A stretch of 32,655 nt of DNA, from assembly GCA_013001975.1 (NCBI GenBank), contig JABDKX010000081.1, positions 1-32,655 on the forward strand, in the 5' to 3' direction. A program made the translations under genes and the position numbers. Source of the stretch: Saprospiraceae bacterium. GTDB lineage: Bacteria > Bacteroidota > Bacteroidia > Chitinophagales > Saprospiraceae. The notes below the pieces were generated by a model. It was not told the origin of the DNA and did not search any database. It saw only the letters and a list, made by a program, of their open reading frames with translations. Below are positions 26,490-32,655 of this stretch, piece by piece; positions within the stretch are counted from its first letter, which is position 1, and the number at the start of each line of letters is the position of its first letter.

Positions 26490-28175
26490 ATGATGAAATC
26501 TATAATTACAGCATGTTTTATAGTAGTGCTTTTTACAACTTGTAAGAATGATTCAACTGAGAATAAAGTTGAAGATGTCGTTACTAATAGCGAAGATTAC
26601 CCAAATTTTGAAGCGTTTTATTCAAAAGGAGACTTAGATGAAAATCTAAAAAAATATACACCTTTTACATTGACAACCGATGTAACCAAGTTGTCTGAAA
26701 GTGAAATTGCCATTATCAAAAAGTTAATTGAAGCTTCTAAACATATTGATGAAATGTTTTGGTATGAAGCTTACGGTAATAAAGATAAATTACTGTCATC
26801 AATTGATAATGAAAAAACAAAGTTATTTGCACAAATAAATTATGGTCCTTGGGATCGACTTAATGGAAATGCTCCTTTTATTGATGGAGTAGGAGAGAAA
26901 GCAAAGGGTAGTAATTTTTATCCGGCAGATATGACAAAAGAGGAATTCGAAAAATCAAATCTGAAAAGCAAAGAAAGCTTATATACTTTTATTAGACGAG
27001 ATAATAACGGTAAGCTAATAGCCGTGCCTTATTTTAGACAATTTAAAAAACAAGTAACTGAAGTATCGAGATTGCTAGATGAAGCTGCTGAGTTGTCAGA
27101 AAATGAAGCATTTAAAAAATATTTAAAACTAAGGTCAAAAGCTATGCTTGACGATGAATATCAAGCATCAGATATGGCTTGGTTAGATATGAAAGATAAT
27201 CACTTGGAAGTTGTCATAGGACCTATTGAAACCTATGAAGATCAATTGTATGGTTTCAAGGCCGCTCATGAAGCTTATGTTTTAATAAAAGATATGGCTT
27301 GGAGTAAGCGACTTGAAAAATATGCACAATTCCTTCCTGATCTGCAAAAGGGATTACCTGTAAGTCAAGCATATAAAAATGAATCACCTGGCAGGGACAC
27401 TGAGCTTAACGCTTATGATGTGATTCATTATTCTGGAGACTGTAATGCAGGCAGTAAAACGATCGCAATAAACCTGCCTAATGATGAGGAAGTTCAATTA
27501 GAAAAGGGAACCAGACGACTACAGCTAAAAAATGCAATGAAAGCTAAATTTGATAAAATATTAGAACCAATAGCTGATGAGTTAATCGATCCCAAACAAA
27601 GACACCATATAACTTTTGATGCGTTTTTTTCAAATACGATGTTTCATGAAGTGGCTCATGGATTAGGAATAAAAAATACTATAAATGGGAAAGGGACAAT
27701 TCGAAAAGCACTTAAAGAACACGCTTCAGCACTTGAAGAAGGTAAAGCAGATATGCTTGGTCTTTATATGATTAATCAATTACATGAAAGAGGAGAGATT
27801 TCAGGTGATATTATGGATTATTATGTGACATTTATGACAAGTATTTTCAGATCTGTTAGGTTTGGAGCATCTTCAGCACATGGAAAGGCCAATATGATCA
27901 GATTCAATTATTTCGATGAAATGGGCGCTTTTACACGTGATGAAAAAACGGGCCACTACTCGGTAAATAGTGAAAACTTGAATAAGGCTATGAACCAATT
28001 ATCAGAGTTGATTTTGACATTACAAGGCGATGGCGATTACGATAAAGTCGCTGCCCTTGTCGCTGATAAAGGTGTAATAAAAGCGCAATTACAAGCTGAT
28101 TTAGACAGACTATCAGATCTGGGTATTCCTGTAGATGTTGTGTTTAATCAAGGTGTAGACGTCCTAGGCATATAA
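26490..28175 (+). CDS. M49-like (DPP III / NUDX3 C-domain type) metallopeptidase lipoprotein
   Basis: The 561-residue protein has a lipoprotein signal (FIVVLFTTC, Cys18). The zinc site is HEVAHG (His386, Glu387, His390) with the downstream Glu ligand in ALEEGKAD (416-417), a gluzincin arrangement. Segments such as HYSGDCNAGSKTIAINLPND resemble the dipeptidyl-peptidase III family as found in the C-terminal part of plant NUDX3-type proteins. Classical M49 enzymes have HExxGH, one residue longer. This branch has a plain HExxH followed by Gly, so dipeptidyl peptidase activity is likely but not certain. It probably acts in the periplasm or on the outer membrane. Two ATGs (26490, 26493) are possible starts. 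Confidence 0.87.
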   Translation: MMKSIITACFIVVLFTTCKNDSTENKVEDVVTNSEDYPNFEAFYSKGDLDENLKKYTPFTLTTDVTKLSESEIAIIKKLIEASKHIDEMFWYEAYGNKDKLLSSIDNEKTKLFAQINYGPWDRLNGNAPFIDGVGEKAKGSNFYPADMTKEEFEKSNLKSKESLYTFIRRDNNGKLIAVPYFRQFKKQVTEVSRLLDEAAELSENEAFKKYLKLRSKAMLDDEYQASDMAWLDMKDNHLEVVIGPIETYEDQLYGFKAAHEAYVLIKDMAWSKRLEKYAQFLPDLQKGLPVSQAYKNESPGRDTELNAYDVIHYSGDCNAGSKTIAINLPNDEEVQLEKGTRRLQLKNAMKAKFDKILEPIADELIDPKQRHHITFDAFFSNTMFHEVAHGLGIKNTINGKGTIRKALKEHASALEEGKADMLGLYMINQLHERGEISGDIMDYYVTFMTSIFRSVRFGASSAHGKANMIRFNYFDEMGAFTRDEKTGHYSVNSENLNKAMNQLSELILTLQGDGDYDKVAALVADKGVIKAQLQADLDRLSDLGIPVDVVFNQGVDVLGI

Positions 28176-28460: not shown

Positions 28461-28506
28461 ATTTATTATACTTAAGTTATCTTGTCGCTGAAATTATTTG
28501 AAATTC

Positions 28507-30861
28507 ATGTTAATAAAATATCAATTTCTCTTCCTTCTCTTTTCATTGAGCATACCTACTTTCTCACAGGACATTATAGTTGATGTCAACATTACAGCGG
28601 ATGAATTTCCTCAAGATATATTTTGGGAAATAACAGACCAACAAAAGAATATCATTCTTTCTGGTGATCTGGAAGGATGTGAACCATTTCAATCTTGTAA
28701 TAATAGTTTTACGATACCTAATGCATGTTACATATTTATAATCAGAGATGTTTATGGAGATGGTATCAATGAACCAGGTGGTTTTGAAGTTTTGGTGAAC
28801 GGCAACTTGATCGGTATAGGTAATACTTTTGAATCAAAGGAGCAGTTCGATTTAAATTGTAAAAGTGGCGAGTCTTGCCAAATGGCAGTTGTGCTTGACT
28901 TACCTGATAACAATATAAATGCCCCAAAAGATAAAGATTATTGGTTTAAATTAATCCCAGAAGTATCAGGACTTTATAGAATGAACACGTGCTTAAATTT
29001 TATCACAGGTAGTGGATACGCTAATACTACAATGTGGGTTTATGACAGCTGTGATGCAGATCTTCATCAAGAAGGGGCTGAAGGCGCGCTAGGGTATTCC
29101 GATGACTCCAGTCAATGCGCACCTGGTTCCTCATTTAATTACGTTCCCTTAGAAAAGGACAATGAATATTTAATACGAACACGCGTTAATGACCTTTCAT
29201 GGCCAGTGGACTCAATAAAGGTGCGCGTTCAAAAATTACCACCATTCTCAGGATGTACTGATCCTAATGCATGTAATTTTAATCCATTTGCTGGAAGCGA
29301 TAACGGAACTTGTTTTTATAGCGAAGATTGCAGACCTGATTTAAAACTGGATGAAGAAGAGTTGAAAAGTTCTATAATTTTGGATCGCGTGTACAATAAT
29401 GATGAATGTTTAATCGAAGAAGGATGTTTGAAAGGATCAGGCTGGAGAGATGTTATCAAATTTTCTACCAAGATTGATAATATTGGCAATGCGGATTACA
29501 TTGTAGGAATCCCTGAAAGGAATCCTCAAAATTTCTCAAAAGAAAATTGTCATGGTCATTGGCATCACCAAGGATATGCAGAATATTTATTGTTTTCAGG
29601 CAATGGGCAACCTGAACCTGTTGGATTTAAAAATGGTTTTTGTGTTCTTGATCTCGATTGCGAATCAAATCAACCCAAATATCTTTGCAGTTATATGGGC
29701 ATTACGGCTGGCTGCAGCGATATTTATGATGTTGATGTTGATTGTCAATGGATAGACATCACAGATATAGCAGATGGAGAATATACATTAGTAGCTCGAG
29801 TGAATTGGAATCGGTTACCTGATATGCGATCTTTTCAGGAGATGACATATCAAAATAATTGGGCACAAGTGTGTATTTCGATTGATCGTTCGTCCGGAAG
29901 CTTGGCTGTTGATATTCTTGAAGATTGTGATAGTTACACAGATTGCTTAGGTGTCGCCTATGGAGAAGCTGAAATAGATTGCAATGGTGTTTGTGGTGGA
30001 AATGCTGAATTTGGTGATGTGAATGCTGATGGCATTTTAGACGATTCAGATGTTGATATTTATCTTGATTTGATTACAAACAAGCAAACTGATAATTTAC
30101 CTTGCTTAGATTTAAATGGAGATGTCGGGTTGAGTATATACGATGCCTTATTGCTTCAGGAATGTATTTTTATAAATGAAGAGGAGGCAGGTAATCCTTT
30201 TCATACGCATTGTTTCTTTCCTGCTGGTATTCAAAACTTTGACGACAATTTATCCCTGATTGTAACCAATTTAGATATGTCTTTAAGGACGTTAGAATTA
30301 TCAATTCAAATTCCTGATAATAACTTGCTGGGATTTCAAGTGCAATTTGAAGGGATTGAAATTGATAGTTTCGAAAAATTGTATAATGAAGAGGCTTCAT
30401 ACCTTCATAAAAACCAAAACGAAATCATTGGGTTTCATAAAGAAGAAGCTATCAAGCGAAACCCAGAATTTCAACCTTTTTTAAAATTATATTTTTCTGA
30501 AATTTTAAATGATAGCCTCTGTATACTATCTTCTTCAGAATTCGTTAATGTTGAATTTGAATTGATTTTTCCATTAATCAGTGATGAGTGCCTCTTTGTA
30601 ACTGATAATTCTAACTTAAATTATCTAAATAATATTACGATTTACCCAAATCCTACTGTCGATATTTTAAATGTGTACAGCACTCTAGACATCAAATCTA
30701 TTCAAGGATTTGATATGCAAGGAAAGCAAGTCCTTTGGGTTAGCAACCTTGGAAATGGACAGTCGAAAATTGACATTGGATATCTCTCCCCAGGATTGCA
30801 TATTTTGAAGTTAAATTTAGAAAATCAACCTCCTCAGTTTTTAAATTTTATTAAAATATAG
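28507..30861 (+). CDS. Secreted lysyl oxidase-domain protein with dockerin-like segment and T9SS sorting domain
   Basis: Residues are numbered from an in-frame TTG at 28498; I take the ATG three codons later, which leads straight into the signal peptide (core FLFLLFSLSIP, cleavage near FSQ). Order: a beta domain (about 25-120), a PPC-like domain (125-245), a Cys repeat GCTDPNACNFNPFA (252-265), then a lysyl oxidase domain at about 280-462. Its copper site is CHGHWHHQGYAEY (His352, 354, 356). K378 in GFKNGFC and Y410 in GCSDIYDVDVDCQWIDITD sit exactly where LOX Lys320 and Tyr355 form the quinone cofactor, with the K+4 Cys and the C-x9-C pair conserved. A dockerin-like part (GDVNADGILDDSDVD, 507-521) and a T9SS type A tail (ITIYPNPTVDILNVY, 713 on) follow. 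LOX oxidises lysine amines to aldehydes that cross-link proteins. The substrate here is unknown. Confidence 0.9.
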   Translation: MLIKYQFLFLLFSLSIPTFSQDIIVDVNITADEFPQDIFWEITDQQKNIILSGDLEGCEPFQSCNNSFTIPNACYIFIIRDVYGDGINEPGGFEVLVNGNLIGIGNTFESKEQFDLNCKSGESCQMAVVLDLPDNNINAPKDKDYWFKLIPEVSGLYRMNTCLNFITGSGYANTTMWVYDSCDADLHQEGAEGALGYSDDSSQCAPGSSFNYVPLEKDNEYLIRTRVNDLSWPVDSIKVRVQKLPPFSGCTDPNACNFNPFAGSDNGTCFYSEDCRPDLKLDEEELKSSIILDRVYNNDECLIEEGCLKGSGWRDVIKFSTKIDNIGNADYIVGIPERNPQNFSKENCHGHWHHQGYAEYLLFSGNGQPEPVGFKNGFCVLDLDCESNQPKYLCSYMGITAGCSDIYDVDVDCQWIDITDIADGEYTLVARVNWNRLPDMRSFQEMTYQNNWAQVCISIDRSSGSLAVDILEDCDSYTDCLGVAYGEAEIDCNGVCGGNAEFGDVNADGILDDSDVDIYLDLITNKQTDNLPCLDLNGDVGLSIYDALLLQECIFINEEEAGNPFHTHCFFPAGIQNFDDNLSLIVTNLDMSLRTLELSIQIPDNNLLGFQVQFEGIEIDSFEKLYNEEASYLHKNQNEIIGFHKEEAIKRNPEFQPFLKLYFSEILNDSLCILSSSEFVNVEFELIFPLISDECLFVTDNSNLNYLNNITIYPNPTVDILNVYSTLDIKSIQGFDMQGKQVLWVSNLGNGQSKIDIGYLSPGLHILKLNLENQPPQFLNFIKI

Positions 30862-31027: not shown

Positions 31028-31253
31028 ATAGGGGTAAACTTTAAATATAATGTCCTTATTACAGACTAAGGATTCTATTTTTTAGATTTCTCAGTATTTT
31101 ATCAATACCTGTTTTGTACGATTTTGATCAATAAAAATGGAGATTATTTCCTTTTGGAAACTAGTTGTCATTTGGATTGATTTTGACGTATTTATGGTGA
31201 AATATTGGGCTCTTTGAGCAATATTGCACTAGGTATTTTTAAAAAAGACCTTT

Positions 31254-31261
31254 TAATTTTG
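31254..31261 (+). promoter_or_regulatory. Candidate -7 box for the surface-protein pair (TAATTTTG)
   Basis: TAATTTTG fits the TAnnTTTG consensus. Transcription from it would give a leader of roughly 210 bases. No TTTG lies at the right distance upstream (one is at 31213-31216, too far), so support is partial. Confidence 0.3.
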
Positions 31262-31343
31262 AGAATGAAAACCTACCGGCACTCTAGGTTCGCGTATGAT
31301 CCTAATGTATTTGAGTATACTCTATGTATGCTTAAATCGCCTA

Positions 31344-31371
31344 TTTCTGCATGTTTATCCTTAAGCAGAAA
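31344..31371. repeat. Leader hairpin TTTCTGC/GCAGAAA
   Basis: Left arm 31344-31350 and right arm 31365-31371 pair perfectly over 7 bases around a 14-base loop, in the leader of the downstream pair. A 10-base palindrome (31313-31322) stands 21 bases upstream. Confidence 0.5.
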
Positions 31372-31480
31372 CTTAATAAACAAATTCACTAACAACTATA
31401 TTTTTTCTGAGCCAATACATGAAAATCGTGTAGGGGCTTTAACATTTGGATTTAATTCACTTAACCGAAACACCCACACT

Positions 31481-32146
31481 ATGAGATACTCTATGAAATC
31501 AACTCTGGTTCTCTTTTTTGCTTTTGCATTGACTTTCGTGACTCAAGCTCAAAAGCGGGGATTCAACGATTCAACACTCTTAGTTCATGAAAGCGTTGAC
31601 AATAAGTTTAGTCAGATGAAAGCCAAGTCTGGGAACATCGAAGTTATTTTCAGAAAAGACAGACTTGAGATTTTTGAAAAGACACCAAATGGAATTGAAG
31701 AAAAACAATCATTCTTGTTTTTCAATGATTCAAATAAAGTTGAACCTAAGGCCATAGGATTGTTGACATCAGGTACAAAGCAAATTCCAAATGAAAATAT
31801 GGCAGCAGTACTAGGTGCTGATGAAATGAATGTGAGTACCTATAAAAAAATTGTATATGAAAATCTATACAATGGAGCAAACCTAGAAATCTCAGTTGTT
31901 AATAGAGCAATCCAATTTTCGATTGTTAGCAAATCAAATGTTTCTGATATTCCTTTCAGTTTATCGTCATGGAATGATTCAGATATGATCAAACTTGATG
32001 ATATTATCAAATTGGTAAATCATGAAAGTTTTGAAATTTATTCAAACAATACATTTCTAGCTGTTGACGGCAAAGATTTAAATTTTGCTCAGACAAATAA
32101 ATCAGCATCCCAAAATATAACTTTCACCCTTAACTTTTTAAACTAA
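31481..32146 (+). CDS. Small secreted protein of unknown function, possibly related to DUF7948-type N-terminal domains
   Basis: From the ATG at 31481 (or 31493) the protein has 221 residues, with a clear signal peptide (LVLFFAFALTFVTQAQ). The frame continues upstream to 31205, but the signal peptide and protein-like sequence begin only at 31481. The mature part is beta-rich: GNIEVIFRKDRLEIFEK, then YKKIVYENLYNGANLEISVVN. That second stretch resembles the 'Y..V.Y.N.YPGIDL.Y' segment at the start of many large Bacteroidota T9SS proteins. The resemblance is faint and the family call is inference. There is no T9SS tail or lipobox. The next gene starts 6 bases after its stop, so the two are made together. 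Confidence 0.65.
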   Translation: MRYSMKSTLVLFFAFALTFVTQAQKRGFNDSTLLVHESVDNKFSQMKAKSGNIEVIFRKDRLEIFEKTPNGIEEKQSFLFFNDSNKVEPKAIGLLTSGTKQIPNENMAAVLGADEMNVSTYKKIVYENLYNGANLEISVVNRAIQFSIVSKSNVSDIPFSLSSWNDSDMIKLDDIIKLVNHESFEIYSNNTFLAVDGKDLNFAQTNKSASQNITFTLNFLN

Positions 32147-32152
32147 CACCCA

Positions 32153-32655
32153 ATGAGAACTTTAAATCTTAAGCAACAAAGTATAATTGCATGCGTCGCA
32201 ATTTTGTCCTTTTTTAGTTTAGGTGTTAGCGCCCAGACCGCAACCTTAACTACAAATGGGCCGTCCCCTATGATAAATATTGATGGGACATCATATCAAA
32301 CCTTTTGCGTTGAATATAACAACAACACACCTCAAGCAGGTCATGGTTATAACTGGGATAATACCCCAGAAGATATAACCAATGATGATATAATCTCATG
32401 TTTGGCTGCCCAAGGGAGTTACAGTATATCTGCTATTCAAGCAGCCGTATGGTATTTTTCAGATAACATAAATCCATCTTCAGGTTCAAATGCTTGGAAT
32501 ATAATTAACAGCGTCAACAATGGGACTTATCAACCCCAATGTTGTTCTGAATGGTATCCTAATGACAATTCATATCAAGATGTTATTTCTAGGGATGATC
32601 CGTACTGTGTTCCTACTTGTGATCCAGCATTAACAATTTACAATAATGGCACATG
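32153..32655 (+). CDS. Secreted protein with a Cys-Gln thioester-domain signature (5' part, runs off the window)
   Basis: An ATG at 32153 opens a frame that stays open to the window end (167 codons seen). A signal peptide (SIIACVAILSFFSLGVSAQ, cleavage after SAQ) is followed by YQTFCVEYNNN (Cys52) and SAIQAAVWYFSDN (Gln96). These match the two hallmarks of thioester domains, [YFL]C and a hydrophobic-Q-x-x-hydrophobic motif ending in W. In such domains the Cys and Gln side chains form an internal thioester that bonds covalently to host or surface amines. These domains were described mainly in Gram-positive adhesins. Further Cys residues (130-131, 152, 156) follow. The rest of the protein, probably a long adhesin stalk, is beyond the window. 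It shares a message with the gene 6 bases upstream. Confidence 0.75.
   Translation, partial: MRTLNLKQQSIIACVAILSFFSLGVSAQTATLTTNGPSPMINIDGTSYQTFCVEYNNNTPQAGHGYNWDNTPEDITNDDIISCLAAQGSYSISAIQAAVWYFSDNINPSSGSNAWNIINSVNNGTYQPQCCSEWYPNDNSYQDVISRDDPYCVPTCDPALTIYNNGT

Follow-up and report, generated by a model that had tools for sequence, protein, structure and literature searches.

What would a lysyl oxidase (LOX), the copper enzyme with which animals cross-link collagen, oxidise on the outside of a bacterial cell? The question is raised by a gene near the end of contig JABDKX010000081.1 of a Saprospiraceae bacterium (assembly GCA_013001975.1), of which a stretch of 32,655 nucleotides, hereafter the window, was analysed. 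The initial annotation had proposed that this gene encodes a LOX domain with a complete set of residues for copper binding and for the lysine tyrosylquinone (LTQ) cofactor, in a protein secreted by the type IX secretion system (T9SS). As judged from sequence comparisons, the gene product is probably a LOX-family copper amine oxidase sent by the T9SS to or past the cell surface. Residue numbers given below count from the TTG codon at 28498. The ATG at 28507 (codon 4) is the likelier start and would make each of these numbers 3 smaller.

Lysyl oxidase domain and catalytic residues

The proposed LOX domain was recovered by profile search. PF01186 matched residues 281–463 (29335–29886 at the DNA level) with an E value of 1.3e-29 and 103.8 bits (cut-off, 20.4 bits); this was the sole match to PF01186 in the genome at E values up to 0.001. 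Comparison of human LOXL2 with the window protein by phmmer gave an E value of 2.6e-22, and the domain model displays the LOX fold (Foldseek, 4.8e-15). Given these scores and the invariance of the catalytic columns described below, the match is not due to chance.

The residues singled out in the initial annotation all occupy the positions given there. The putative copper ligands His352, His354 and His356 are located in the stretch C351-H352-G-H354-W-H356-H357 (CHGHWHH). Lys378 lies four residues before C382, Tyr410 lies four residues after C406 and six before C416, and the latter cysteine opens the CQWIDITD motif. The annotation was also right in placing the predicted copper and LTQ residues within a cysteine framework like that of the animal enzymes: all five align with their LOXL2 counterparts and are present in 114 of 114 aligned sequences. 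Ten cysteines occur in the domain of the window protein, eight of which align with cysteines of LOXL2. They may form the five disulfides of the LOX framework; the last cysteine pair and every disulfide pairing follow what is generally known of the family.

The predicted LTQ lysine and tyrosine are separated by 32 residues in the window protein and by 36 residues in human LOXL2 (5ZE3). In the LOXL2 crystal structure 5ZE3, Lys653 and Tyr689 are 16.6 Å apart (PMC9694262), and the AlphaFold models for LOX and LOXL2 from humans differ from each other with regard to this residue pair (PMC9659206). The Lys–Tyr distance in a model, which the initial annotation had named as a check, therefore cannot refute LTQ formation. 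Lys378 is located outside any regular strand of the domain model (block pLDDT 83); this observation was not used here.

Conservation of the catalytic residues

Two sets of loci were compared. The first one was found by profile and included 33 loci (L001–L033), that is, 30 of the 34 matches in the set of 60 relatives, the window's own among them, and three further loci from the search of the phylum. The second set was made up of the 80 top-ranking loci out of 571 relatives confirmed after a collection scan with two peptide patterns. Some genomes are present in both sets. One of the two scan patterns includes Lys378, so that this lysine was partly selected for among the 80 loci, while Tyr410 was absent from every scan pattern and filter. 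The extraction step sought an HxHxH...K...C layout and excluded no locus (33/33 and 80/80); L016, a fragment without the His stretch, was retained via a Lys-only pattern. Among the loci found with the PF01186 profile only, Lys and Tyr were present in 33/33, and HxHxH was present in all 32 loci containing the His stretch.

The window protein belongs to a ten-cysteine class, which comprises 19 of the 33 profile-found loci and all 80 scan loci. Within this class, 99/99 rows (92 of them distinct) agree in the His residues of the triad, in Lys378 and Tyr410, and in nine cysteines (C304 to C459); the tenth cysteine, C477, is kept in 97/99. Within the CQWIDITD motif, C416 and D420 are conserved in 99/99 rows and W418 in 98/99. 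The 114-row alignment combines the ten-cysteine class with a second class, one Gemmatimonadota protein, and LOXL2. Only 11 of its columns are fully identical, and H352, H354, H356, K378 and Y410 make up five of these.

The second class accounts for the other 14 of the 33 profile-found loci (L016–L021, L025–L030, L032, and L033) and forms one side of a branch with a support of 100/100 in the tree. Its members retain HxHxH, Lys and Tyr in 13/13 rows covering the region but have no cysteines corresponding to C351, C406 and C416, and their Lys–Tyr spacing is longer. The two classes are linked by HHalign with a probability of 98.8. T9SS tails were found in 7 of the 14 members; among the 14, L016 is a fragment and L026 is truncated where its locus ends. 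In one genome (G037), as many as five PF01186 matches occur. With its different cysteine set, this subclass offers a natural test of the disulfides needed for LTQ to form.

Secretion and domain architecture

The features of the LOX gene and its product are listed in Table 1. The full-length protein could be aligned with 60 relatives, with which it shares 31–47% identity.

Table 1. Features of the LOX gene and the encoded protein; positions refer to the window.
Feature	Position	Strand	Residues	Basis or remark
LOX gene	28498..30861	+		ORF (open reading frame) list; 787 aa from TTG at 28498, 784 aa from ATG at 28507
Signal peptide, predicted; hydrophobic start MLIKYQFLFLLFSLSIPTFSQ	28507..28566	+		by eye from translation
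Beta-sandwich domain, fold as in clostridial collagenase collagen-binding (PPC-like) domains	28858..29241	+	121–248	
Cys-rich GCTDPNACNFNP loop	29251..29331	+	252–278	sequence
Lysyl oxidase catalytic domain	29323..29934	+	276–479 (Pfam 281–463)	
Copper triad, predicted	29551..29565	+	His352, His354, His356	aligned with LOXL2 CHRHYH; 114/114
Predicted LTQ lysine, in KNGFC	29629..29631	+	Lys378	aligned with Lys of LOXL2 GHKASFC; 114/114
Predicted LTQ tyrosine, in CSDIY	29725..29727	+	Tyr410	aligned with Tyr of LOXL2 CWDMY; 114/114
CQWIDITD motif, C-terminal to the LTQ tyrosine	29743..29766	+	416–423	sequence
Dockerin type I-like module	30010..30183	+	~505–562	weak profile match and two model helices
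Cohesin-like beta-sandwich	30232..30615	+	579–706	
T9SS type A C-terminal sorting domain	30631..30858	+	712–787	

The T9SS sorting tail was identified by Pfam (PF18962, residues 715–776, E = 4.7e-8) and, as TIGR04183, also by NCBIfam. Two T9SS components were searched for in the same genome, and both PorU (1150.7 bits) and SprA (2061.4 bits) are encoded there. The N-terminus looks hydrophobic by eye and may be a Sec signal peptide. With regard to the proposed secretion by the T9SS, the sorting tail thus stands as an observation, while export itself appears likely because this tail coexists with the PorU and SprA genes.

Within the Cys-rich loop that precedes the catalytic domain, G252, C253, C259, P263, A265, C272 and C278 are invariant in 61 aligned sequences. 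The dockerin-like assignment relies on weak matches of profile A2 to dockerin chains (E values from 0.013 to 0.87) and on two helices in the model (residues 516–527 and 547–562). The dockerin family PF00404 was matched in 9 of 61 members, but not in the window's own LOX protein. Judging from their folds, the most likely role of the flanking modules (PPC-like, dockerin-like and cohesin-like) is to keep the LOX domain on a surface or in an extracellular matrix.

We also note that a dockerin-like and a cohesin-like domain follow each other (30010–30615) in one T9SS-tailed protein. Self-assembly could be conceived for such an arrangement, the basis of which is a weak profile match and a weak fold similarity.

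Relationship to known lysyl oxidases

Bacterial LOX, including those from Bacteroidetes, are already known. Excerpts of an earlier survey list Bacteroidetes among five bacterial LOX clades and describe the Lys, the Tyr and the three His as conserved (Grau-Bove et al., 2015; PMC4448552). According to the same excerpts, the prokaryotic LOX are, with three exceptions, single-domain proteins, some of which also carry a signal peptide or a transmembrane part. The common form in the window's class, by contrast, is a multidomain protein of ~790 amino acids with a T9SS tail. Unlike LOXL2 and animal LOX, the window protein has T9SS, dockerin-like and cohesin-like parts and gave no match to the SRCR domain in a Pfam search. 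T9SS-tailed LOX with dockerin-like and cohesin-like modules were not found in the open-licence literature searched, as judged from titles and the opening lines of abstracts, and this architecture seems to be undescribed; the one paper in which both lysyl oxidase and the secretion system are mentioned was a review on Porphyromonas and cancer.

The archaeal enzyme of Haloterrigena turkmenica (HTU-LOX) is active with Cu2+ and is sensitive to 3-aminopropionitrile (PMC6452851). Excerpts of that paper describe as hyperconserved three copper-binding His along with the Lys and the Tyr of LTQ; all five are likewise conserved in the window's class. HTU-LOX is archaeal and displays relaxed specificity, whereas the window LOX is bacterial. 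The number of disulfides is described there as highly variable across LOX (PMC6452851), while the window's class retains the cysteine framework. A plasmid-borne LOX of Gemmatirosa kalamazoonensis (NZ_CP007129) resembles the window protein in possessing CHQHFH, KRGFC and an aligned Tyr.

PF01186 matches were detected in 21 of 60 relatives, in 87 of 393 genomes at the level of the order and in 4 of 392 at that of the phylum; these numbers include both classes and, in each case, the window genome. The closest relatives, among the best 80 of 571, are encoded in metagenome-assembled genomes of uncultured Saprospiraceae, with L034 showing 69% identity. Relatives are also encoded by strains of Phaeodactylibacter or Lewinella (L061, L084, L094). 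No relative was present among the viral contigs or phages of the collections searched, and one distant relative was found in plasmid collections.

The window protein shares 35.3% identity with LOXL2 over 173 amino acids (97.8 bits). Its similarity to the Gemmatirosa protein is lower (26.6% identity; 62.8 bits). The member of its class that scores best against the Gemmatirosa protein, L036, reaches 88.2 bits (32.3% identity) with the latter and 99.4 bits with LOXL2; LOXL2 and Gemmatirosa share 56.2 bits, and the best row of the second class scores 45.8 bits against LOXL2. In 99/99 rows, a higher bit score is obtained with LOXL2 than with Gemmatirosa; the ten-cysteine class is thus closer to LOXL2 than to the single further bacterial phylum compared. 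As to the origin of animal LOX, the joining point of LOXL2 was not resolved by a 107-row tree, in which the branches of LOXL2 and Gemmatirosa are both long and meet at an open fork, with a long-branch warning. This tree sampled one animal and, besides the Bacteroidota, a single bacterial phylum.

Genomic neighbourhood

The neighbourhood of the LOX gene was surveyed in the 80 scan loci. The counts are lower bounds, because the flanks are unequal: in 46 of the 80 loci, each side spans 3 kb or more. The neighbours present in the window recur near LOX in at most two of the 80 loci. Fourteen neighbour clusters were listed, one of which is LOX itself; they were judged on the first 150 residues, and six of them also by Pfam. 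One of the six is a cluster of glucose/sorbosone dehydrogenase-like proteins (PF07995), which occurs in 8/80 loci and is absent from the window. Its representative L044:9583-10980 (PF07995, E = 3.7e-73) is located ~40 bases downstream of the LOX frame and has a T9SS tail of its own. LOX and the PF07995 protein possibly constitute a set of exported oxidoreductases. The other five Pfam-checked clusters, each examined in one example, correspond to an ABC transporter ATPase, MiaE, a thiolase, a TPR histidine kinase, and ARPP-1.

Within the window, an apparently secreted protein that is cut at the contig end is encoded at 32153–32653. It shows a PF08341-like match (21.0 bits; cut-off 22) and a TFCVEYN stretch followed by IQAAVW, which we take to be the Cys/Gln layout of thioester adhesins. 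A genome-wide search for PF08341 gave nothing at E 0.001, and the controls were likewise silent. This thioester-domain-like gene was dropped as a partner of LOX, as it had no match in the 80 loci though it was queried. Just upstream, the ORF at 31205–32146 displays weak similarity to DUF7948 (18.2 bits; cut-off 27); its listed TTG start is probably too early. The region 26490–28175 encodes a peptidase of family M49 (dipeptidyl peptidase III-like, E = 1.4e-15).

Proposed function and alternative explanations

The following route is suggested by the features described above and by knowledge of the enzyme family. The protein would first be exported by Sec, and its ten cysteines would then be free to pair in the periplasm. 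The C-terminal domain would direct passage via SprA and processing by PorU, as implied by the sorting tail together with the genes for these two proteins. Copper bound to His352, His354 and His356 would oxidise Tyr410, and the addition of Lys378 would yield LTQ. By analogy with the family and with the active archaeal enzyme, the mature protein should oxidise primary amines with copper and LTQ; primary amines, peptidyl lysine included, would be converted to aldehydes with the release of NH3 and H2O2. We rank extracellular protein modification or cross-linking slightly above the scavenging of small amines. Matrix cross-linking, which the initial annotation gives as a role of LOX in general, has found no support in the genome so far: no partner occurs in more than 10 of the 80 loci, and the repeats of a collagen-like protein encoded in the genome contain no lysine.

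Several observations weigh against the reading of this protein as an exported, LTQ-forming oxidase. Six complete ORFs from the 80 loci have a LOX domain, but no tail was found in them. Within the genus, 3 out of 13 further genomes show a PF01186 match, which in one case is a second-class fragment; as several genus genomes of at least 95% listed completeness have no match, the gene is patchy. None of the neighbours names a substrate, the commonest cluster being present in 10/80 loci. Finally, the auxiliary residues His623, His637 and His652 of LOXL2 correspond, by our own placement on the alignments, to Glu349, Glu362 and Phe377 of the window protein. In the ten-cysteine class, position 377 is Phe in 92/99 rows and position 349 is Asp in 71/99. 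Gln mutants of the non-ligand residues His623 and His652 of LOXL2 keep less than 50% of LTQ (PMC9694262), and the absence of their equivalents could lower LTQ formation in the window protein. By contrast, excerpts of the 2015 survey describe the first talon His as absent from bacterial LOX generally and cite work in which its loss changed copper binding or activity little (PMC4448552).

The strongest competitor, which we consider possible though clearly less probable than not, is a broad-specificity amine scavenger, which would obtain nitrogen by deaminating extracellular primary amines, whether free or bound to polymers, with no cross-linking involved. Besides lysine polymers, the substrates of HTU-LOX include methylamine, cadaverine, glycine and further amines, and its authors propose a modest role in nitrogen supply (PMC6452851). 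The lack of a matrix partner in our data agrees with this explanation, and the T9SS-tailed PF07995 gene adjacent to LOX in 8/80 loci could suit a set of exported oxidases. However, no look-alike of an amine transporter or aldehyde dehydrogenase was recognised among the 14 neighbour clusters listed, as judged from the sequence starts and, for six, from Pfam; the binding-type modules and the T9SS tail suggest a fixed extracellular place rather than uptake.

A surface weapon or defence enzyme acting through H2O2 and aldehydes seems unlikely. The LOX reaction does yield H2O2, and some amine antibiotics are also oxidised by HTU-LOX (PMC6452851), but the same 14 clusters, examined in the same way, include no immunity, catalase or defence look-alike.

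We regard as somewhat less likely still an inactive adhesin, in which the LOX fold is kept as a stable disulfide-bonded binding module. The other domains of the protein do resemble binding modules, and no activity was reported for any Bacteroidota LOX in the open-licence literature searched. Such a role, however, gives no evident reason for keeping H-x-H-x-H, Lys and Tyr in 114/114 sequences while cysteines vary.

Animal-style cross-linking of a bacterial collagen-like protein is the least probable option and is already disfavoured. The genome does encode an apparently secreted collagen-like protein (L117:1045-2439), in which three PF01391 matches exceed the cut-off, and the LOX protein includes a domain folded like those that bind collagen. 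However, the 53 Gly-X-Y triplets contain neither Lys nor Arg, with lysines located solely outside the repeats, which therefore offer no target and count against an animal-style reaction on the helix. The collagen-like protein was rejected as a likely helix substrate for this reason. PPC-like folds, for their part, are widespread and have many different ligands.

Implications

A far-reaching scenario, which we presently hold to be rather improbable, is that an animal-type LTQ enzyme exported by the T9SS serves members of the Saprospiraceae and related Bacteroidota to make a covalently cross-linked protein matrix outside the cell, with assembly through dockerin-like and cohesin-like modules. The ten-cysteine class would then also rank among the closest extant bacterial relatives of the animal enzyme. 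If true, the tool with which animals build their matrix would have been at work in bacterial matrices.

The functions of prokaryotic LOX were termed enigmatic in the 2019 archaeal study (PMC6452851), and the 2015 survey calls for more studies of bacterial LOX function (PMC4448552). A large conserved class in the Bacteroidota, with a clear sign of surface export and with fixed extracellular modules, turns this into a testable question, namely, what an LTQ enzyme oxidises outside the cell. The closeness of this class to LOXL2 also makes it a useful sequence set for addressing the origin of the animal enzyme.
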